A stretch of DNA of 64,000 nucleotides from Mesaphorura yosii. Lineage: Eukaryota > Arthropoda > Collembola > Poduromorpha > Tullbergiidae. The stretch lies in NCBI GenBank assembly GCA_009869945.1, contig WIXG01000142.1, forward strand, positions 62,001 through 126,000, in the 5' to 3' direction. The notes under the pieces are model-generated. The model did not search any database and was not told where the DNA came from. It was given only the letters and a program-made list of their open reading frames with translations. How positions within the stretch are numbered: the first letter of the stretch is position 1; each line of letters opens with the position of its first letter. The position numbers were made by a program, and so were the translations under genes. Of this stretch, positions 11,653 to 64,000 are shown one piece after another.

Positions 11653-14326
11653 ATGGAAGTCACAAATACAAATACGGAATTAGCTAAGCCCAAGCCCAAG
11701 TTTAAGTTTAGTGTACTCGAGACAATATGCAAATTTCGAGCCAGATTCTACGCGTGGATTTGGAATTTGGTACGAGCTCATTACTTCTGTAGCCTTAGTA
11801 CAGTCCAGCCGTGAAGGAGAAAGCGAAGCGCGCACGGATTTTGGTAACAGTTGGGTCTAATACGAAGTGTCTTTGCTGTTTTCAGGGGTCTGGGATTGGT
11901 GAGCCATCAGTCCACCATGCACTTGTTGTCATATTCCTGGAATTTTTCGCCTGGGGACTCCTTACGACCCCCATGATCACAGTAAGTTCACTTCCGTTTC
12001 ACATCGACGGAAAGCACGAATCTATGTAGGCTTACTGTTAAAGTGGCATTTTCCTGAGAATTTTAACGGTGTTCACGTCGTCACTGCATCTTACCTTGAC
12101 TGTCATACTCCATGCTCTGAAATAGAAATGTCTTCGTTGGCAGTTTCAAGTAAATTTTAATGGCATTTACTAAACCAGCAGAAGTCCGTGGATTGACATT
12201 AGTTTATAGATGTTATGAGTTACAATTATAGATCACTAACTATAGACTTTTTTCGCGAAAATGTTGCCGTCACTTGAACTATACGGCATTCCAAGAAGCC
12301 AAGAAAGAGCAGCATATGATGTGAACCGTAGAAGTCAATTTCTAATCACATTAAAGGTCACGTAGACAAACGAAGACATACACCTAACCAGTAGTGGCCG
12401 GACCTCAATATTGGAATTTATAAATACACCTCAATAATCTCCGTTCTCCGTTTTGTCTCGCAGGTACTGAACGACACTTTTCCAAAGCACACGTTTCTTA
12501 TGAATGGACTGATCGTTGGAATTAAGGTATTCAATTATTAGGATGCCTGAGCCCTGAACCCAATTAGTCTCACCGCACTATTCCGTTCCAGGGCTTTTTA
12601 TCCTTTCTGAGCGCTCCGTTGATCGGGGCCTTGTCGGACGTATGGGGGCGAAAGTTATTCCTGATTCTAACCGTCTTCTTCACCTGCGCCCCAATTCCTC
12701 TCATGCAAATCAACACCTGGTGGTATTTCGCAATGATTTCAATCTCAGGCGTCTTTGCAGTAACTTTTTCGGTAGTATTCGCATATGTTGCTGATGTCAC
12801 ACCAGGTAAATTCTTTCGTACCACTTCCTTATTTAGTTTAATTCTGTAGCGAATTCAGAATTCATTATTTACCAATTGATGAAACATTTCATAGGAGAGG
12901 AAGAGAGGTCTGCTGCGTACGGTTTAGTTAGTGCTACATTCGCTGCTTCTTTGGTCACATCACCTGCTCTTGGAGCTTACGTAGAAGACGCTTACGGTCA
13001 AGCGACTGTTGTAGCTCTTGCCACAGGTATGACCTTCGAAAGCGTTATCAGCGTCAGAAGAAGAATTCATTACATCTTAATTTGCTTGCAGCCATTGCAG
13101 CATTGGACGTAATATTTGTTCTGGTAGCTGTACCTGAATCACTGCCACAAAAGCTCCGAGTGTCTGCCTGGGCTCCACTCGCATGGTAATTAAGAAATAA
13201 TTCTTTAGCAAGCAACGCTGAGCAATTCCTGAGGCTGATCATAATTCTTTCCTATAACAGGGAACAAGCAGATCCTTTTGCTGCCCTCCGAAAGGTTGGT
13301 CAAGATAAGACAATCCTGCTTCTGTGTGTCACGGTTCTACTTTCCTACCTGCCTGAGGTAATGAAAAAACACATGGCAGCACAAATCGAAGATTAGGTTC
13401 TGATTCCTAATTCTCAACTTTGTGTTGTGTCTTTCAGGCGGGGCAGTATTCCTGCTTCTTCGTTTACCTGAGACTGGTAGTGGGCTTTAAACCAGAAGAA
13501 GTGGCAACATTCATTGCAGTCGTGGGCATCATGTCCGTGGTTGCGCAGACTGCTGTGCTTGGTTTACTCATGAAGAATGTGGGAGCACGCAAAACCATTG
13601 TGATCGGGCTGCTGTTTGAAATGTCAAACCTTGCGTGGTATGGCTTCGGGTCGGAGAGGTGGATGATGTGGGCAGCAGGGCTTTTAGCTGCTTTCTCTAG
13701 GTGTGTAAGAAATTCATGGTCCCATCTGCGAATTCTTGAAGTTAATCTTGAGGTTTCTGAACATTTTCCTTTCTTTCTTTGCAGTATCACTTACCCTTCC
13801 ATATCTGCATTCGTTTCCACCAGCGCCGATGCTGACAAGCAGGGACTGGCGCAGGGTATGGTCACTGGAATGCGAGGTTTATGTAATGGTTTGGGTCCAG
13901 CTGTATTTGGGTTGATATTTTACATTTTTCACGTCGACTTGAACGCGGATGAAGCGCAACTGATGGCAGTTGACAAGGGCACGTCCAGCCCCAACGTCTC
14001 AACGTCAGAGCTTTCACACCACAAACTGGTGGAACATGTAAGAACATTGGCTAATGAAGACGCCTGTAGTTAACTCGCAATTTTGCTAAATGAAGTCTTT
14101 TGAAATACGATTTCAGATGATACCTGGGCCACCCTTCGTCTTTGGCTCGTTGATGGTGTTACTTGCAATCAGCGTCGCTCTCTTCATTCCAGAGAAGAAG
14201 TCTGGCAAGATAAGGCGACAGGGAGGATCGGATGATTTGGTTGACCTGGAAAATCCTCAGGGTACAGGTCAAAGCACTTCTCAAATCATGGCTCCTCTAA
14301 TTCCTCAAGACCCAGCAATACTGTAA
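11653..14326 (+). CDS. MFSD14: MFSD14/HIAT1-like major facilitator transporter
   Basis: A 12-helix major facilitator protein of 512 residues, close to human MFSD14A (HIAT1) and Drosophila rtet. Its substrate is not established; vertebrate members act at Golgi/endosomal membranes. Ten exons: 11653-11769, 11886-11981, 12464-12526, 12592-12805, 12895-13026, 13092-13185, 13261-13357, 13438-13700, 13785-14037 and 14117-14326; the joined length is in frame throughout. Family blocks seen in order: GEPSVHHALVVIFLEFFAWG (helix 1), KHTFLMNGLI, the MFS loop GALSDVWGRK, FTCAPIPLM, AYGLVSATFAASLVTSPALG, WEQADPF, YLPEAGQYS, WYGFGSE.WMMWAAG, and MRGLCNGLGPA. The last exon gives PGPPFVFG, the last helix and a short hydrophilic tail. 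The first exon (39 codons) is not conserved. A polyadenylation signal follows at 14351. Confidence 0.95.
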
Positions 14327-15920: not shown

Positions 15921-17049
15921 ATGAAATCTACGGGTACATTAAGCCTTCCTTCAGGGTCACCTCGAAATAGCCCGCCACCAAGCCCTGGTAAGCCCTCGAC
16001 TAACTTATCGAGCTTCTGAATTATTTCGTCCCATAAAATCGAAAAACTTGCACCTGTACCTCAAGCCTAATTATTTCCAGCGTCCACTCGTGGTCCCCGT
16101 GTAACATGGAGCCTTCCAAGCCACAGTATTCATGGGTCAATGCGGTCGATCATTGTTCGGGAGGAGCAAGTATGTCTACACAGTGGCCGTTTTCGCCGCA
16201 AAAGCCACATCTAATTCGGCCATTTATCACTTGATTTCCATTAAAATTCGAAGGAAGAGGCCACAACAGAGAAGTCCTCGCCTTCGACCAAGACGATGGA
16301 CCCAACCTCACCCGAATTCATTGCATGGAGGAGTCTTTACTTGAGTCATGCCAAGCTGGATGGAATCACTGAAATGGCAGCGTTGATGGCCGGATTTTCC
16401 GTCGTATGTGTTTTTCGACCCGATCTCAGACTTCATTCGCCTCACCGCCTTGAAAATCGCCGACGTCATCGTCGTTGTCTTTGTTGCAGGTTGCGACGGT
16501 GGAGCTCCAAATCAACGACGACGCAAATCCGGCACTGCTGTCCGCCTTCACAATTGTCACCGCATTGTTGGTGTGCACAACAATGCTGGCAATCATGGTA
16601 CGGCGATCGGGCATCACGATTGTCCCATTTCCAGAAAAATGTATCATTAACAGACAGCTTGTTCACTTTTTCAGATTTCGACGTGCATTCTGCCTCACAT
16701 CAAAGTCGTTGCCGAGTTGCAGCCGCATTCGAAGCCTCACGAAAGCCCGCACGTGAAAATGACATTCTACATTGATTTGTCGTGGGTGTTGGCCAATACA
16801 ATTTCCATCTTTCTCTTCACACTCGATGTGATCCTGCTCTGCTGGATAAAATTCACGTACTTCTCCGTGGTTGCTTCGTGGTGCGCCACCGCCATCATGA
16901 TCCCAGTGCTCTTTGCCATCTGCATCTTTGGAATCGTGTTTTACCGGAAGCTGGTGCACCACCAGCATCTCATTTCAGAGAGAAAGTACGAGGAGCTGGA
17001 AGAGATGAAAAGGCAACTCGATACAACAGCCACAATCTTACACGTTTAA
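15921..17049 (+). CDS. Orai: Orai-type calcium release-activated channel subunit, divergent
   Basis: Orai forms the store-operated calcium channel pore in the plasma membrane and is gated by STIM. Five exons (15921-15987, 16081-16169, 16254-16403, 16490-16597, 16675-17049) join in frame to 262 residues. Residues 1-75 are a Pro/Ser-rich cytosolic tail. TM1 holds the pore: LYLSHAKL, ALMAGFSVVATVELQ, where E107 aligns with the human selectivity residue E106. TM2 has CTTMLAIMISTCILPHI; TM3 has LDVILLCWIKF with Asp where human has E190; TM4 is MIPVLFAICIFGIVFYR. The C-terminal helix RKYEELEEMKRQL matches the STIM-binding coiled coil. Odd: positions equal to human R83, K87 and R91 are His, Asp and Glu here, while K85 is kept. 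The first-loop acids are partly changed to Asn. The gene is certain to be Orai family; normal gating is not. Confidence 0.93.
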
Positions 17050-17125: not shown

Positions 17126-17131
17126 AATAAA
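17126..17131 (+). terminator. Polyadenylation signal AATAAA of the Orai gene
   Basis: AATAAA lies 77 bases beyond the Orai stop and 85 bases before the WDR27 stop codon on the other strand. Confidence 0.45.
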
Positions 17132-27823: not shown

Positions 27824-29046
27824 ATGGACGCCCCGTCGCTGTTTTCATACAACACATTGGTACACGCCATGTCCGGGTCGTTGGTAAGTTTTCTGAGCGC
27901 GTGTTGGAGATGAGAAAAGATTAAATGTAATCAGGTAATAAATTAATTGCACATTAGGCGTCCGTGATGGCGATGACCACAACATATCCACTGGATAATA
28001 TTCGGGCTAAAATTCAGTGTAAGCAATCAATTTGAGCTGAAATTAAGAAACTTTGGTTGGGCGTCGTCAACTAATTTTGGACTCTGCTCTTTTATGTACG
28101 CTTTAGTGGATTTGCTTCATCCAACATCCTCAACGTTCAAGATTATCCTTAGAACTCTGAGAGAGCACGGGGTTGAAGAATTGTACCGAGGTGAATAGTG
28201 CAATAGATTAAATGTTCAATTAAGCGAGCATTCAAGTAATGCAGCAATACATGGTTTGTTTTATAAGGAATTGGGCCAACGCTGCAGTCATTATGTGTGT
28301 CCAATTTTGTCTACTTCTACGTGTTTCATGGTCTGAAGGGGCAAATCAAATCTAAGTCAGCGCTCAAGAATTTAGTTCTCGGCGCACTTGCTGGAGTGGT
28401 GAATGTTCTAACCACAACACCTCTCTGGGTTGTGAACACGAGGATAAAATCCGGGGCAAAGTACCAAACACTCACAGGTAAATTCTTGACGATGCCAGAG
28501 AGAATCAAGTTTCGCCTCTAATTTGGCTATATGTCTTGCTCGTGCAGATGGCCTAATAAGAATATCGAAAACCGAGGGCGCCAAGGCATTGTGGGCAGGC
28601 ACCGCTCCATCTTTACTCCTAGTATGTAACCCGGCAATTCAGTTTATGACTTATGAAAGCCTGAAACGGATAGTCAAGGATGGAAATGCCCTGACTTACT
28701 TCCTCCTAGGAGCCGTTGCAAAATGTGTTGCAACAGTGCTCACGTACCCGTTACAACTCGTACAAGCCAAAATGAGAGTAAGTAAAAGCTACCTGCGAAC
28801 GATGATGCTTGGAGTTAAGACGTGTTGCAATTATTCTGACATGTCTTGCAGCATGGATCTGTCTCGAAGTCCATCAAGCAGCTGTTTATGGAAATCATCC
28901 AGAAAAATGGTTTGCCAGGCTTGTACAAGGGAATGGAGTCAAAAATATTGCAGACCGTCACAACAGCAGCTTTGATGTTTGTGTTTTACGAGAAGATTGC
29001 CAGATTCGTGTTTCACTTAATGGGACTCAAAACAGTCAGGCATTAA
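27824..29046 (+). CDS. SLC25A17: Peroxisomal carrier SLC25A17 (PMP34)
   Basis: A six-helix mitochondrial-carrier-family protein of 279 residues. The human member sits in the peroxisomal membrane and exchanges CoA, FAD, NAD and adenine nucleotides. Exons: 27824-27883, 27958-28018, 28107-28190, 28268-28477, 28548-28777, 28852-29046; all joins keep frame. Carrier signatures occur in each repeat: [11 protein letters not shown] (repeat 1), [12 protein letters not shown] (repeat 2, the PMP34 form of the motif) and [13 protein letters not shown] (repeat 3). Other close matches to human PMP34 are [38 protein letters not shown] and [10 protein letters not shown]. It is slightly shorter than human (307) mainly in loops. 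The N-terminus ([18 protein letters not shown]) aligns with human YESLVHAVAG, supporting this start. The 3' end converges on NUP133. Confidence 0.95.
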
Positions 29047-29391: not shown

Positions 29392-32300
29392 TTATGATAA
29401 AATCATCGACGAAGATGACAAGTGCTCGTAGCAAGCGTGGAGGAGAAAGTTGACAGTCGCGTTCTCAAAGAACGAATTTAGGATAGGCATGCTGGACAGT
29501 CTCGCCAAATCAAGGAGTTCTTCCAGCCTGTCACCTACATTGGAAGATGGAAATTAGGAAATTAAATAGATTTCATGTCACATTTCTTACGAAGCGCTAT
29601 TTGCTGTATGCTCGTACCTTTACTGACTGCTTGCAACACGAGGTTGTATACCAACGACTTCTCAATCACATCCTCCGGGTGATCAGTGGGCCAGGAGTCC
29701 CAAGGATCGCTGCGAATAGCTCTCGCGACAACCTGCAATCTATTGCCGCACCAATTAAAATTTCGCTGGGCATCTTCGAAATCTCTGCTGGGTCACTCAC
29801 CTTTTATCCTCACGAACATTTCCAGACGTGACAAAATCACAGAGTGCCAAGGCCTTGTAGAAATTATTCAGACTTGCCTCAACGTTATTATTGGAATACA
29901 TATCAATGAGTTCGGTGGTAGCCAGCGTCCTCATCGTGGCGCGGTCCATCCCAAACTCTTCCAGGATCACATCCGGCAACTGGTTCTGGTACTCGATAAC
30001 AGCCAAATCTTCGTTCACTGTTTTAAACAGCTCTGCGTCTCTGGGTTGAATGTTCTCTGTTGACAAAACTCCCAACTTTGCCATGCACAGAAAGAATTTC
30101 TTGTCATCCACGCTTGCTTCCTCTTTATCGGCCAGCCTCTTGAGTGTGGACGAAGACTCCCGAAAATCCTCGTTTACGACGGAATGATGCCAACCGACTT
30201 CTGGATGTGCTTGCAGAAATTGGTGCAGCTTATTCTTGAATTTACTCAGGCTGAAAGTTTCGATGAGTTCCGATGCCTTTCTCTGCCGCAGGTACCACTC
30301 AAAGGTGTAGGTGGCAAAATCAAGCTGCGAATACTTCTCAAACAAGTACTCCATCCTTCCCATGTCGTTCTTCATGTAACAAACCGTCACCAGAACCTCG
30401 AAGTCGAGATACTTCTCGGCCAGAGCAACCGAAGATACAGAATCGACTTTAACCAAGCTACCCAAGAGCTTAGCTCGCTTCGACTCAAAAGCTGACAGTT
30501 TCTCATTGTACCTCTCCGAGCCTTTCAAACTCTCCAGGCTGATTTTGAGTCCATCAAGAATGAAATCCGTCAATTCTTCCAGTTGTGCAAAAAGCCCATT
30601 CTTTGCAACACCGTCGCTCGAGTTAATGGATGTTGTAACGATTATGTCTGCTTGCTTTGTCAATTGCTCCACCACGCTGGGCTGGACGTACCACGGAGTG
30701 ACGGTCAACGAGCTCGGTTGATCCGCCAACGAGCTGAGGAGACACTTTCTGACCGGTCCCAATTTGTCCAGCGTGTGCAACTTTCTTAATTCTGAGAAAA
30801 CCTTCAAGATGACCTCGGTTGTTTCGAGAACAATCGTTGGTGCATCCTCAAGCGCTGCTTCGTTGAGGTGACGCTCTTCAATTGAAATCAATGCTACGAA
30901 AATTTGATGGATATGAGTGATGTCCTTGTAGAACAAATCATTGTAGCTCAGCTGAGCAGTTCTGCTGTCTTCTAGACGGTGCGTGATTAGTGATTTGATC
31001 GCAACGTCAATCAGTTTCCGAAAATTAGCTCTGCGAATTAAGAACATCCTCTCAGGAGGTGAAAAATGAATTTAAAGTTCTTACTAATTTGAAGTTGTCT
31101 TACTCGGACTGAAGATAGTGGAGCGTAATTGCAAACCCGATTTTCTCGTACGCATTGAACAGTATGGAAACCGTAGCCTCAACATCGTCCTTCACCACCA
31201 CTCCGGTTAACTAAACGGACCACAAGAATCAATTGGTAAGACGGAAGGGTGAATTGCAAACAAGATGTAACACATTACCCTCGGCAAAATATTTGTCGAA
31301 TGGAGAAATCCGAAAAAGAGCTCCAGACCTTCCTTCTTGTCAATGAGAAAGTTCTTGATGAGCATTTTCGACCTCATTCCGGCAGCATCGAAATCATCTG
31401 TTGTAATCACACAATTAATACCGTCTCACATGACAAATTGCATGTAGGCTTCAGCTTGTCAGCTCTTACCTCGACTTCCGATTGCGTTTGTCAACCATCG
31501 AGGATCACCAACTGGGGCGTCATCAACCAGCTTCTCACAAAGTGCTATTGTCAACTTGTCGATTGGATCATGCGGTGTTAACGAAGCAACGTCATCCGGG
31601 AACAGATTTCTTAAAATCTCTTCGCATTCATCCATTTTCTTCCCACAAAAGTTGAGGAAGGCGGATTTGTACCGGTTCACGTTATCGTCGCTTGAGAACA
31701 AGTCTTGAATGTTGTGCTGAGTCATCGACAGTGACAAATGATCGGGTACTCGGATTTCGGAGAAAGTATCATCCAGCGAGGGTCTGTAAGGTCATTGGCA
31801 CCAATAGTAGTAAATATTTTGTCAATGATTGCATAAAACTATCGTGCATTACATTCTAGTATCTCCACATTGGTTCCACCGGAGTGAAAGCAAGCCTGTT
31901 TTTGAGACAAACACAACGGCGGTGGCTTCAGTGACATGGCCGGAACCTAAGAAGACTCCTCCAAGACTTTCACTCGTGATGAAATCCAACGGTTCATCTC
32001 CTGATTTTATAAATGAAATTAGGCTTTCTGACGGAGAGCGAGGTGAGAATTCTGGGTTGAGAAGCAGCAAGAACCTGAAATGACGAGAATTTTCTCATCC
32101 GAAACCATGTAGAAAACATTTTGGGTCCCGAGTCCCAGCAACTTCCAGGAGTACAAAACATCCTCCAGACTGTCTGTCCTGGGCGTTTTGTAGGGAACAA
32201 GGTTGAAGTGTGTGGTCTCCTTCGATTTGAAATTCCTTGGGTTGAAGGTAACTACAAAATCCAGTAAAAAGCATATCAGCCCGGTTCATTCTGTTGAGTT

Positions 32301-35300
32301 GGTTTCCCTCTCAGTCATTCAACTCAGCAAGTCTCAAGTTACGTACCGATTCCAAAATGAATCTCTTCTTTCGCATCATTCTGGTTCAAGGCAGCGACAA
32401 GCAGAGCAGCCCTGCCCGTGCTGAAACACAGCAGGTCCAGAAGCCATACCTGGATGCCTCGTACATCTGCCAGCCCTTCCTGAAAAAATCGACAACGATA
32501 ATGGAAGTCGTAGGTTGTCATCAAATAAAATTATAGCTGATATTATTGAACTGTTGAGTATTCATGCTTGCTAAAAATGCCCGTGCAAGTTTCAGCAGGC
32601 AAATGTGATTATGTAACGTAACAATGGATTTTGTGATTACGCAACATGCGTACACAACCCAACGCCTCATAATTTCGCTCTCGTATTCACTGCATAACCA
32701 ATAGCCCGTGTACATGAAATATCAGCTATTTTTGCAACGGGTGCAAAAACTTGAGCCCTTCGCTGTCCGCCAACTCTAATATTGCCCACTTTGTACTAAA
32801 AGTTGTGATAAGTAAGTCATAACTTGCGAGTTCGAACGGTGAACAGCAAAAGCATGCGTGACAGACCTTCGGAGCTTGGCTTTGTTTACATTCAGATTCA
32901 TGCTTCAACTTGATTCAAACATGACCTTGAATCTTTACTTTGCATAAGAACGTTGTTTTGCTTCGTTTTGTGGAGTGACAACAGCTATAAAACGAACCCC
33001 ACAAACCGTCGTGTCTGACAGAAGTGCGTAGACGTTCTCCGGGTTCAGTTCTATAATATTTGTCTCAGTATTTTCCCTTTTCGTATCAAATTCGAGATCA
33101 ACTTTTTGCTAACTGATCAAATTTGCGCTCAACTGACAGCTTGACAACATGGCTCTTTCAAAAGAAGTATACCTCCGAGACTTGGATTCAAATGAGAAGT
33201 TTATTGACGCCTGCGTGTGCTTCAGCCGAAACCTGATCGCCGCTGCGTCGATTTCGTTTACCTCAAAGCAACGGTTCACCTTCGCAGATCTTGAAGATGC
33301 CTTGATTCGCTTCCAGGTTAGAAAACGCCACGACCAAAGCGTACTTTGTACTGTATCATATCTGAGAATTTGCTTTGCTTCGCAGAAAAACCATTTGGAA
33401 CTGCAAGTGACAATCAAGCGCTCAGAGTCAACTGGAGGAAAAGGATGGAATCCTCTGCATTGGATTCGAACACCTAAGCCGAAGCCGAAAGTTGAGTTTT
33501 GGACAGCCCCAAATGCTCCAATTTCATTGCAGTGGATACAACTAAGGAAAAACGAAAGTTGGGAACGATCGATTATTGAGAATGGAATGCAGGTATGTTC
33601 TAAGCGCAGAATAGTCGCAATCTACGAAACTATGCTGATTGGTTCATGCACTTCAATACTCTAGGCTACATTTGAAGAAGGCCAACTGTTGTGGAGAGCA
33701 ATTTACGTTGATCAAACCAAGCCTGGGTCAGACAGTCAAGAAGGAACATTTGTTCTTATTTGCCATTGTGCCATAGCCGACGGCAGAGGCTTTCATCTTT
33801 TGTTGGACGATTTTGCTGAAGAATTTGACAACATTTTGGACAAGAAGCCACACAAGCCGTAAGTTTGTGTTCATGTAGATAGAAAAATGATGAGTCCTCG
33901 AATAACTACTGAGTACTGGTTATTGCTGATGTACGCAGAAAAGAGACCAAGATGCTTGCACCCCTGCTGGACATACTTGACGAAAAATATAAGCAGTCGA
34001 ACTCCTGGGGTGATTCGATCAAGATTGGACTTTACATGGCCAGTTGTATGTTTGTCAAGAATCGCAGCGTTTACATCGTACGAAACCCGATTCCTTCAGT
34101 TCCTGACAACACAACAAGACACATTGTGTTTAACCTGACAAAGGAATTGTCTTCCAAACTCCTCAAGAAGGTCAAGACGAACAACATCTCCATCAGCGGT
34201 CTGATCACAGCGGCTGGAATGGCGGCTCTCCATGAAATGATAGCCACTTCAAAAGATGAGCAGCTGAAATTCCACGTAACTCATGAAGTCGATGTACGCG
34301 TGTTCTGCAAAGACTTTGACAAACTGAAGGGTCGCTTGGAAGGCTGCCGCTGTACGTACATGGAAACTTCGCTGAATGGAACACGCGTAAAGAACTCGTC
34401 CGAACTCTGGGAACTGGCTGCCGATGCTCATGCCGAAATCGTTCCAAAACTCTCGTCCATGTTTCAATCGAAGTTATGCAAAGCTTTCTGCGAAATGGGC
34501 GGAGATCCTTACGAGATATTTGGGAAAATGGGCACACAAATAGTTGGTCGAAATGATTTTTCGGTTGCAGTTTATGATGACTTGGACGATGTTTTCGGTG
34601 GACGGGACAATATCGAGGTAATTACAATCCAAGCAGTGGCAGCAGACGCAAGTCAGCTTACATTTCAACGATGTTTCCACTAACTTCAATTTTAAAACTT
34701 TTCTCGTTTTCCAGCTCAATAGAGTCTTTGGAACTGTCGCAGCGCACTCCATGTGTTCAGCATTCGGCCACGTTATTCATGTGTTGAAGGGTCAAATTTT
34801 TTACACGCTGCACTATTTTGGACCCTATGGCAAGTTTGAGAAGGCAGAAGCATACGGCGAGCGCACACTCGCGTATCTGAACATGGCTGCAGAGTAAAAC
34901 TTACAAAGTTCTTCTTTGTCTGTAGAGTATTGTGTTATACCACTATTCCACCATTAGAGTAAAGAAAATCTGTTATTGGTCCTAGTAAACTGTAGGTACC
35001 ATTCTGGAAGTTTCAATTTAAGTATCACTTAAGTTCCTTAGAATTTTCACTTGTCACTTCCGTTACGATTGCGCTTAAATAAACTAAACGAGCAACAAAA
35101 ACTTGAAACTTACCCAAGCGTGTTCATTGAAAAATCTTTTGACAGACTCGTCGACATTTTTGCAATCCGTTTCACACTGTTGAAGGTCAGAGGTCACAGT
35201 CCAAACTTGAACACTCGTGCCAGACAGAAGATACACGGTGGATTGCTTCGCGCCCGGCTGCGAAGGGTTGTCTTTGGAGATCGGTAAGACCACCTTAGCT

Positions 35301-36349
35301 CGTTTCTGTTTAGGCAGGAGTAGCTGGATTAGCCCAGTGGTTTAGAAAATGGTTATGAAAACTAACAACTCACGGTGTCTAAAGTGGTTCCGCCGGGTAA
35401 AATGTAATTGATCTTTTTCTGCAATCCGCCCAACCATCCCTTCGTAGCCAAACTCAGGCTGATACATTGAAGCATCGGCCGGTTTCCGCCAATTGGCTTA
35501 ACTAAAATTACTGTTGCGCTGGTTGTAGTCAGAATGCAACCAGTTGGCCAAATTGAAGAGAGGGAATCACATTCTTGGCCCTGTAAATTTAAACGTATGC
35601 CCGATTACCAATAAGTCAACACCAACGAGGAAGGGAAATGTTTCGGAAGATTACTCACACTAGGAACATCAGCACTTATCGACAGAGTTTGTGATTCGTT
35701 GGCGATGTTAGGCCAATAGGTTATGGATCCTTCCGGGCTCACTGCAATACACGCTGGTGTGCTGGAGCCAGCTGCACCGACAACGCAGATCAATTTGGCG
35801 TGGTGAACTATTTCGCTTGGAGGTAAAGTCAACTCTCGACAAGGAATGGTTGTCCTCTTTCCATCGGTAATTGAATGTCTCCAAATGTAAAGTTTCTTTT
35901 TGGCAACCATCCACGCCCAGCCATTGGGATCCATGCGACACGAAACATTTTGCATATCTGGAAAATTGGGACAATATTATAATCGCGGATCCATTAAACC
36001 ACAGCTTTCGTTGCCGTCTTTCAACTGAAAAATTAACAATACCTTCAATTTTGTTAAGCGCAACACGGACCATGGACGGAAGTTGTGCTCCGTAAGGTTC
36101 AAGGCACAACGAGGATCCAGGGCTTAAAAATACCGTCTCATTTCCTCCACCAAACCGTGACGTTCTCCGACTGAAACTACATGATATGTACAGAGTTTAC
36201 GCCAAAGAACTCAACCTCTTATAGGAACATGATCCTAAACTTACGTACCTGTTTGAGAAGCTAGCATTTAGGCTGGTGTTCATTGACGAATTTAGCAACG
36301 TTGCGTTTCTGATCGCAGGAGCTGGCGGGGCCGACATTGACCAATCCAT
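29392..36349 (-). CDS. NUP133: Nucleoporin NUP133, with a gene nested in one intron
   Basis: NUP133 is a scaffold subunit of the Y (NUP107-160) complex of the nuclear pore: an N-terminal beta-propeller then an alpha-helical stack. Exon 1 (36249-36349) and exon 2 (36043-36170) give a Ser/Asn-rich leader. The propeller follows in 35659-35957 (GWAWMVAKKKLYIWR, matching human GWACLVCKEKLIIWK; CRELTLPPSEIVH), about 35373-35581, and 35114 to about 35313 (STVYLLSGTSVQVW). A 2.6 kb intron (32480-35113) separates this from exon 6 (EGLADVRGIQVWLLD). The helical part includes DAPVGDPRWL (human DYPASDPRWA), the large exon 29804-31047 with LAEKYLDFEVLVTVCY (human LAEKYCDFDILVQMCE), FEWYLRQRKASEL and LHQFLQAHPEVGWHH. 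Two last exons give RSDPWDSW and the C-terminal helices. The ATG at 36349 gives the expected disordered start. Head-to-head with the V-ATPase F gene. Confidence 0.93.
32986..32992 (+). promoter_or_regulatory. TATA box of the nested acyltransferase-like gene
   Basis: TATAAAA stands 157 bases before the start codon at 33149. A TCAGTT initiator-like site follows at 33045, further downstream than the usual 30 bases, so the exact start of transcription is uncertain. Confidence 0.5.
33149..34897 (+). CDS. Condensation/BAHD-like acyltransferase, nested in NUP133 intron
   Basis: Five exons (33149-33316, 33386-33592, 33665-33858, 33939-34617, 34715-34897) join in frame to 476 residues. The fold looks like the chloramphenicol-acetyltransferase-like superfamily that includes condensation domains and alcohol/wax-ester acyltransferases: a leading substrate half ending with the motif region VLICHCAIADGRGFH, then a long second half with GLITAAGMAALHEMI and a closing beta/helix unit (NRVFGTVAAHSM). 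The family motif is HHxxxDG, with the second His catalytic; here it reads HCAIADG, so Cys replaces that His. No signal peptide is seen, so it is probably cytosolic. The substrate is unknown. It lies on the strand opposite NUP133, wholly within its intron 5. Family call is from the motif and general shape; function could be altered or lost. Confidence 0.75.
35078..35083 (+). terminator. Polyadenylation signal AATAAA of the nested gene
   Basis: AATAAA lies 181 bases after the nested gene's stop and 30 bases before the NUP133 exon edge at 35114. Cleavage 10-30 bases downstream would keep the transcript inside the intron. Confidence 0.5.
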
Positions 36350-60319: not shown

Positions 60320-61533
60320 AGCACCAGCGAAGGGCTCCGAGTAGAACTCCTGGTGGTGGTGGATTCCGTAGATTTCGCTCACTCGTCCTGGTCTCCACCA
60401 CGAGGCCTGGCACCTCTCACCTCCTCACACACCGCCGTGCAGCGACGCTGGAGGAGTACAGCCGCAATACTTCGCATACAAACATGTCCAAATACGGAAA
60501 CTTCATGAGGGTGTCGTAGTCAAGGCGAGAGCCGCCGTCACCCTCCATGGCACCTGAAATCTCCTCGTGGAGCCTTCGCTGCGCCTTGGGGTTCATCGCC
60601 AACTCATAAAGTCCGTACATCAAGAGCGTGGCAGGGCCCTTCCATCCCCGCAAAGAAAAACACGAACGACTGCGACAAGAGAAGCTCCTCCGAGAGCCGG
60701 TCGCCGTCACGGGTAGCCTCCGTCAGGAGCTGGAGGAGGTCGTCCTTCTCTCCTCGCTCCTCGCGGCTCCTCATTAAATTTTCGATGGTTGCCCTGAAGA
60801 AGTGGACCGCTTAGGGGTCGGGGCGAATGAGGTTGAAGAGGTTGGCAAGGCGGAAGAGTCAGGGCACGAGTTGCGGCTGTCGGTGTCGCACTATCGCCCT
60901 CTGCTCCTCCCTTGTGTACGGGGAGTTGTTGTCATTTGATTCGAGTATTCCCCTGTCTTCCAAACAAAGGACAGAGGAGGCGATGAGCTGAAGGAGGTAT
61001 TTGTTGATGGGGCCCACAAACTCCAGCAGAGACCCCTCGGCGTGTCCCAGTTGCTCCCGGAGGAAGGCCACGAGCTCCGTCGGGGAGTCGTGGAGGCGCT
61101 AGTGGATTCGGCGGATTCTGGAGGTGGAAAAAGCCTGATAGAGGATGACTTTGAGGCGCTTCCACTCCTCCCCAGTGGCAAAGCTGAGCATTTTGTTCCT
61201 TGTGGGGTCAGAGTGGGAGCCTGGCGAGTGACGATCAGGGAAGTGAGGAAAGTCCCGCTGACTGACGGTCTTGGCGAGGTCCAAATCGATGAGCATCAGA
61301 GCGGAGCCAGCGTAAGCGGCTGATTTGACTACAGCACCGTACTTGAGCGCCTGATAAGTCTCGCACTCCCGCATCCGAAGAATGTTGGGGTCATTTCCAG
61401 TGACTTCGTTGGAACTGAGGTCAAGAAGCTGGGATGGAGCTGGAGGTTTCATCAGGAGGACGTATTTGCGGATGAGGGCCACCAGGACGGCCTCGACGGA
61501 AACAAATCCAGCGGTTTGCAGTACAAGATACAT
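60320..61533 (-). pseudogene. Cytochrome P450 pseudogene, intronless, truncated
   Basis: A GC-rich stretch reading as a microsomal P450 on the minus strand. Recognised in order: an N-terminal hydrophobic segment from 61533; the helix C region GEEWKRLKVILYQAFS; helices F-G (VAFLREQLGHAEGSLLEFVG); the pre-I region (RDGDRLSEELLLSQSFVFFFAGME); helix I/J (LLMYGLYELAMNPKAQRRLH); the ExxR helix (FVCEVLRLYSSS); and IYGIHHHQEFYSEP, the stretch that precedes the haem loop. The Cys-containing haem loop itself is absent. In-frame stops lie at 61099, 60859 and 60811, and the frame shifts near 60645 and again after the ExxR helix, so it cannot encode an enzyme. It has no introns although neighbours do, and its composition is clearly richer in G and C than its surroundings. 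Confidence 0.85.
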
Positions 61534-61596
61534 TTTGTGCTGATTGTAATGAGTTAAGTTGGAAGACTGACCGAGGGCCGCAATTAGCCGAGCATT

Positions 61597-62902: not shown

Positions 62903-63889
62903 CTACGTTCCACCGCCATTCCCGTTCTTCCTTGCATTTGCATTCGTGTACACGAGGGAACTCGTCTGTGTTGGTTCTTCGTCGATTGAAGTCGACAAAA
63001 TTGGATTTTCTGGTCTGTTCACTACGGAACGAAGAAAAAACAACACAAACATCGTTCATCAGATATTTGACATGGCATGGCTTTAATTAAAGCGTGCGAA
63101 ATTCGACTCACGGTAGGCCTGTCTGTCATTCATCTGCATTGCCGAGTGTCTGTTGCCGTCTGTAATTACCACCGAGTCTTGACTGCCACGATGCGCCCCG
63201 TGGCTCCTGCCCATCGTCATTTGCTTCTTTACCTTCTTCAAAGAGACGTTCATGAGTCTTGGGTTCGCCGTGTTAAATATTGTCCGGTTTTCTCGGAATC
63301 TTGCTCTGCAATGGAAAAATGGTGATATCATTCAATGCTTAATATTATTATGCTCTTATTGGCAGGGCCATTCAGGAGCAGGAAGGCTTACTTTGCAAAT
63401 AGTCTCATCACGACGCACAATGTGACCGACATCAGAGCCAGGCCGACGATCACTCCAATCATTGTCGGGTCCGTCTTGGGCCCAGTGTCCATGTGAATGT
63501 GAACCCGCTCTGCGTTAAGTTAGTTAATAGACTTGGCTATTAGGTCAAGCGAGTAAAATGACCTCATAACACTACAATGAACTTAATGTTGCCGCCATCG
63601 TCGTTTCGTTTATTACCTCTGCAAATATCTCGTTCGGACGCTGAGACGGTGTATCCTTTCATGCAGCTACAGATTTCTTCTCGGCACTCTGTAAAGTAGC
63701 CCGAACATCGGCGCGTGCGATTGCATGGACCGCGAAGTGGCACATCAGCCACGTACGCCTCTTCACAGTTTCCCGACTTGTCAGTCATGGGCATGAAATT
63801 GTCTTGACATGAACAGGCTCCATTGCGACATTTTACAAAGTCTCCGATGCAGGCACGAGTCGCACTGCAGACTTCGCCCAAGCGTGCGT
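62903..63889 (-). CDS. EB-module type I membrane protein 2 (partial; 5' part beyond window)
   Basis: Four exons visible: 63617-63889, 63392-63509, 63112-63305 and 62903-63021, about 234 residues of the C-terminal part. The first visible exon encodes two Cys-rich EB-type modules in one exon (EVCSATRACIGDFVKCRNGA, CSCQDNF; then VPLRGPCNRTRRCSGYFTEC, CSCMKGY). The next gives the transmembrane helix (MIGVIVGLALMSVTLCVVM) ending RLFAK, followed by ARFRENRTIFNTANPRLMNV. Exon structure, intron phases and this block match EB-module gene 1 closely, so they are paralogues. The distal tail differs: basic (KKVKKQMTMGRSHG), then ending KNGNGGGT without a PDZ-ligand pattern. It needs upstream exons to the right of the window for its signal peptide and any further modules. 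Confidence 0.8.
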
Positions 63890-64000
63890 CTGTAAATGCG
63901 ATAAGAGAAAATCGGTTTAGCCGGGCAAGAATCTGAAAACATGGAGCTGGATTCCAATTTAAGCGAGTTTGTCGAGTTACGAGTCACTGATTGCTGTACT
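63890..64000 (-). other. Intron of EB-module gene 2 running off the window
   Basis: Begins at the acceptor of the two-module exon (ATTTACAG) and continues past the window edge. No exon is seen in it. Confidence 0.5.

Follow-up and report, generated by a model that had tools for sequence, protein, structure and literature searches.

The Orai gene and its neighbours

The window, by which we mean the whole stretch of 64,000 nucleotides of Mesaphorura yosii that was analysed, carries an Orai gene at 15921-17049 on the forward strand, composed of five exons and four GT-AG introns of 77-93 bp, with 262 codons in frame. The spliced product matches the Pfam profile Orai-1 (PF07856) with an E-value of 1.4e-44 and 152.3 bits against a cut-off of 25, and in the PDB it matches Drosophila Orai (4hkr; E 7.1e-48, query residues 68-255); by these scores homology to Orai is far above chance. 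The features of the gene are as follows, codon coordinates being derived from the gene model and human positions being those of Orai1.

15921..15987, + strand: exon 1 (tentative), running from the model's first ATG to a GT donor; Ser/Pro-rich N-terminal tail
16081..16169, + strand: exon 2 (tentative), N-terminal tail, in phase; the intron after it ends in an unusual AAG acceptor
16254..16403, + strand: exon 3, TM1 extension and inner pore, with an alternative start (Met67) at 16296
16347-16349, 16359-16361 and 16371-16373, + strand: exon 3 codons H84 (CAT), D88 (GAT) and E92 (GAA), equal to human 83, 87 and 91
16374-16376 and 16401-16403, + strand: exon 3 codons M93 (ATG) and V102, equal to human 92 and 101
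16404..16489, + strand: phase-0 GT-AG intron of 86 bp that interrupts TM1 between human positions 101 and 102
16490..16597, + strand: exon 4, outer pore, filter Glu107 (human E106), first loop, and TM2 with Thr133 (human H134)
16502-16504 and 16580-16582, + strand: exon 4 codons E107 and T133 (ACA), the latter three changes from His
16675..17049, + strand: exon 5, end of TM2, loop 2 with Lys148 (human E149), TM3 with Asp172 (E173) and Asp189 (E190), TM4 with Pro215 (P245), C-terminal helix, and stop TAA at 17047-17049
17126..17131, + strand: AATAAA polyadenylation-like signal 77 bp beyond the stop, read by eye in the sequence

Exons 3-5 are backed by homology, while exons 1-2 are tentative; their coding status is less sure because their GC content by codon position (0.52/0.67/0.42) differs from that of exons 3-5 (0.46/0.38/0.66). 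Exon 3 (16254-16403) encodes LYLSHAKLDGITEMAALMAG, which the removal of intron 16404-16489 joins in phase to VATVELQINDDAN of exon 4, giving GFSVVATVE. The in-frame ATG at 16296 lies just 5' of the conserved TM1 extension and translation could begin there; the resulting short form could resemble mammalian Orai1 beta, which is reported to arise by alternative translation initiation (PMC9735889). As an acceptor word TTTTCAG is not outstanding, occurring 18 times in the window with both strands summed, which speaks weakly against a nematode of the Caenorhabditis type.

Directly upstream of Orai is a major-facilitator gene (12837-14326, + strand), which we take to resemble animal MFSD14/HIAT1; one piece of it (13411-14070) matches Pfam MFS_1 below threshold and 14 NCBIfam models, mostly of tetracycline efflux, far below their cut-offs. 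An acyltransferase-like open reading frame at 33913-34680 (+ strand) matches PapA_C with an E-value of 1.2e-4, below the Pfam cut-off, and has no match in the PDB or NCBIfam. It is flanked by Nup133-like pieces at 29800-31071 and 35608-35976 (both - strand), which match Nucleoporin_C and Nucleoporin_N, and since it lies on the strand opposite to them it is perhaps a gene nested in an intron. The window also contains a mitochondrial carrier piece (28490-28972, + strand), a cytochrome P450 piece just under the Pfam cut-off (61102-61596, - strand) and two cysteine-rich EB modules (63567-63983, - strand); no RNA families or tRNAs were found in it.

That the Orai locus is a pseudogene or an assembly error seems to us extremely improbable. 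Such an origin would account for unusual residues at functionally important sites and for the AAG acceptor of intron 2, but the frame is intact, the splice sites are consistent in phase, the motifs ISTCILP, ESPH and LCW are conserved, and GC content in exons 3-5 is 0.66 at third positions against 0.46 and 0.38 at the other two. When 4000 copies of the 196-codon core were allowed to diverge neutrally in a substitution-only simulation, 476 were still open at 10% divergence, 82 at 20% and 18 at 30%; at 5%, however, 1425 of the 4000 copies were still open, so that a very young pseudogene is conceivable. An intact and functional Orai is very probably what the gene encodes.

The residues lining the pore

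We aligned the window protein with fly Orai, whose letters come from the PDB match, and with human Orai1; the column map places fly R155, K159, K163, H206, E221 and E245 at their published numbers. Along the pore face (human positions 83, 87, 91, 95, 98, 99, 102 and 106) the protein reads HDELGFVE, against RKKLGFVE in fly and RKRLGFVE in human, such that all five outer residues are kept and all three inner ones are changed. The Glu selectivity filter of TM1 (human E106) is retained as E107, as are all four residues of the hydrophobic gate (L95, F99 and V102, with G98). On this alignment the basic ring of the inner pore has gone and its charge is partly reversed, the only positive charge left being what the His may carry, and over the stretch corresponding to human 76-106 the net charge is -1 here compared with +5 in human and fly, His being counted as neutral.

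These assignments agree with the original prediction, which had R83, K87 and R91 replaced by His, Asp and Glu while K85 and E106 were retained. It had also placed Asp at the E190 position, which we recover, although the site falls in exon 5 and so beyond the 16254-16597 interval to which the prediction was attached, and had described two first-loop acids as Asn; these are D110N and D114N, but fly already has Asn at the D114 site. Its central claim, a charge-reversed inner pore in an open frame, is borne out by an intact Orai in a single open frame. A frameshift or splicing artefact was considered and rejected, as the residues in question share that frame and the phases are consistent; among the listed open reading frames of at least 40 amino acids in the other forward frames there, nothing resembles the usual motif. 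Base errors are hard to blame: two substitutions separate codon 88 (GAT) from a Lys codon, while codons 84 (CAT) and 92 (GAA) lie a single substitution from Arg and from Lys or Arg, respectively.

A structural paper gives Lys or Arg at the three basic pore positions "in all Orai channels" (PMC7723414), and a flatworm Orai is said to retain R91 and E106 (PMC3194816); the window protein departs from this family trait. The basic trio is a trait described for the family, not a criterion of membership, and by profile, filter and gate the protein is classed as an Orai. No natural Orai without the basic ring was described in the literature listings and text passages that the analysis covered. Nor was a relative confirmed in collections not meant for animal genomes, namely IMG/VR (24 and 89 pattern matches, none Orai by tblastn) and GTDB genomes (31 and 38 pattern matches, none Orai), or in plasmid and phage collections, as expected for an animal gene.

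In its general architecture the protein resembles Drosophila Orai (PDB 4hkr, 6bbf, 7kr5), with four transmembrane segments, a short TM3-TM4 loop, the pore face L-G-F-V-E, and K157, W248 and P288. It differs in having H, D and E for fly R155, K159 and K163, and M, V, T, K, D and D for fly T164, M173, H206, E221, E245 and E262. With human Orai1 it shares the filter E106, the gate V102/F99/L95, the hinge G98 and K85; it differs in lacking the inner basic ring, in the serine ridge S89/S90/S93/S97, which is I/T/A/A here, and in the nexus SHK, which is HHQ.

Single acidic pore mutants of Orai1 are said to have been described by Mullins and Lewis in 2016. They too place an acid in the basic section of the pore, and are reported to be STIM-dependent CRAC channels lacking Ca2+-dependent inactivation (cited in PMC7723414); the window protein differs in carrying two acids and a His at once, naturally and among many other changes. 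Replacing all three basic residues with Ser is reported to leave fly Orai non-functional (PMC6170153), and neutralising them to prevent activation through reduced hydration of the pore (PMC12893689). The analogy that had been drawn with human R91W, which abolishes currents, is weakened by those single acidic mutants, and also by a review in which hydrophobic residues at position 91 kill the channel while hydrophilic ones preserve function regardless of charge (PMC12893689).

The gene might instead be a diverged second Orai, lineage-specific as the original prediction thought possible, and perhaps a subunit that is non-conducting or dominant-negative, accompanying a conventional Orai elsewhere in the genome. 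Tribolium and Apis are said in a review to have two Orai genes and other invertebrates one (PMC9735889), and altered gating residues would suit a modulatory subunit. However, filter and gate are fully kept, tblastn finds a single Orai locus in the 64-kb window (the best E-value outside the known exons is 0.33), and we give this reading little credence.

Substitutions coupled to the pore

Changes also affect residues that pack against the pore helix or are coupled to it, namely S89I, S90T, T92M, S93A, S97A and M101V, together with H134T, L138I, E149K and E173D; the alignment shows K85, E173 (as Asp), L174, W176, F187, K198, P245 and G98 to be kept. Four of the changes equal human Orai1 mutants of measured effect. 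T92M is reported to be strongly constitutively open (PMC9991058) and H134T constitutively open (PMC7825772), while M101V is reported dead (PMC7679135), as is E149K, which also overrides H134A (PMC7948504). As aligned, therefore, one natural channel carries side by side the counterparts of human open-locking and shut-locking mutations, and we find T92M, M101V, H134T and E149K, which were absent from the original prediction, more telling than E190D.

Mutants that combine such changes have been described. Loss of M101 can be overridden by an opening mutation, as the constitutive activity of M101C/F187C shows (PMC7679135). STIM1-driven current returns in the engineered R83E/E149K, and R83E/H134A/E149K conducts with STIM1 but not in its absence (PMC7948504). 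The last two share with the window protein the loss of a basic residue at 83, Lys at 149 and, at 134, a small residue, but the window protein has His at 83, Thr at 134 and new acids at 87 and 91. The charge swap R83E/E149R is also reported to bring back Ca2+ entry (PMC6579751). A salt bridge has been proposed between R83 and E149, yet these lie about 14 A apart in structures (PMC7825772), and R83E alone is described as reduced in one report (PMC6579751) and fully active in another (PMC7948504); the separation and the conflicting reports make the weight of this pair doubtful.

In human Orai1 at least two of three salt bridges between the N-terminus and loop 2 are reported to be needed (PMC7825772). 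Of R83-E149, K85-E149 and K85-E173, only the last, as K85-D173, clearly remains by sequence; the R83-E149 pair is absent in its usual form, with His and Lys in these positions, and the new acids stand one and two turns up, at 87 and 91. Under the human rule the channel should fail unless new pairs form, and a pair between position 87 (Asp) and position 149 (Lys) is possible.

One reading of these changes is a constitutively open, store-independent channel, in which H134T and T92M remove the brake, Ca2+ leaks without any need for STIM, and cations pass more easily through the acidic inner pore. Each of these two mutations gives constitutive Ca2+-selective currents in human Orai1 (PMC9991058, PMC7825772), and S93 and S97, the partners of H134, are also gone. 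Yet M101V and E149K abolish function in the human channel, E149K even against H134A (PMC7679135, PMC7948504), a steady Ca2+ leak would presumably be costly, and the C-terminal helix region still aligns, with the E275 and L276 columns kept and the L273 column Tyr here and Ile in fly, the register being uncertain there. We consider constitutive opening unlikely.

Identity of the window protein is 40% to human and 44% to fly, and it departs from both at 55 of the 117 positions where human and fly agree; among gating checkpoints the rate of change is no higher than elsewhere (10 of 18; Fisher p=0.45), the list being our own choice of 21 from the literature less 91, 174 and 184, at which human and fly differ. 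With this divergence and no enrichment, the co-changes may simply have drifted in a fast-evolving lineage rather than having compensated for one another in concert. The phenotypes we rely on all come from human or fly, so that at 40-44% identity their effects cannot safely be carried over residue by residue. In C. elegans, coupling of Orai to STIM reportedly takes another route, chiefly via loop 2 (PMC8834118), which suggests that rules found for the human channel may not extend to other animals.

The same figures favour an ordinary divergent orthologue, in which the basic ring has simply been relaxed and Orai behaviour is otherwise usual apart from small changes in inactivation, and the tolerance of single acidic replacements (PMC7723414) would agree with this. 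Against it stand the fatal effect of converting all three rings to Ser together in fly Orai (PMC6170153), the reported presence of the basic residues in all Orai channels (PMC7723414) and the retention of R91 and E106 said of a flatworm Orai (PMC3194816). This account, too, we think has a rather small chance of being correct.

A proposed working of the channel and its significance

The working that we prefer is drawn from human and fly mutants, and starts from what we observe, namely the sequence, its unbroken frame and which residues are kept or changed. The protein would form a Ca2+ channel, hexameric if it follows its family, with an outer pore operating like that of other Orai channels: a hydrophobic ring of the L95/F99/V102 type would act as the gate with the Glu filter outside it. 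Current work regards the hydrophobic gate as the main barrier (PMC7723414), and with filter and gate both intact Ca2+ selectivity and the closed state should persist. The original suggestion of altered gating or ion preference divides: altered gating can fairly be supposed, while the retention of E106, V102, F99, G98 and L95 weighs against a changed ion preference.

Below the gate, an acidic funnel of Asp and Glu, with one His, would replace the basic one. These charged residues could keep the inner pore hydrated, a role proposed for the basic residues, such that opening would not be lost as it is in the triple-Ser mutant; a wet acidic pore would fit both the tolerance of hydrophilic residues at 91 and the single acidic mutants (PMC12893689, PMC7723414). 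Changes of opposite effect would set a new balance between open and closed states: T92M and H134T (with S93A and S97A) would push the channel open and M101V and E149K, with the loss of the R83-E149 pair, would push it shut, while Lys148 perhaps pairs with the new Asp88. The C-terminal helix would still dock STIM, and fast Ca2+-dependent inactivation would be absent or altered.

The mutant reports, together with the override of M101 loss, lead us to expect a STIM-gated channel with abnormal fast inactivation and a restored resting balance. By analogy with those mutants, gating by STIM is somewhat probable, and there is about an even chance that fast Ca2+-dependent inactivation has been lost. 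The picture as a whole, a real and probably STIM-gated, Ca2+-selective Orai whose gating balance has been rebuilt by opposing changes and which lacks normal fast inactivation, we would credit about as readily as doubt.

Should this be so, the Mesaphorura protein would be a natural Orai whose inner pore is inverted in charge and, within the literature searched, the first known. It would indicate that a CRAC channel can work without the 18 basic residues, and that an acidic vestibule can serve with a gate rebalanced by the counterparts of T92M and H134T against those of M101V and E149K, the channel being STIM-gated or partly STIM-independent and without normal fast inactivation; we offer this larger proposal tentatively, as possible but less likely than its contrary. 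The purpose of 18 positive charges in the pore of a cation channel is still debated, an anion plug, an electrostatic barrier, hydration of the gate and inactivation being the ideas at hand, and a natural channel with reversed charges is a ready-made test of them. Its set of possibly compensating gating changes would likewise provide a check on rules derived from human mutants, such as the rule that shut-locking changes mostly override open-locking ones, and may show how evolution can rewire such a channel.
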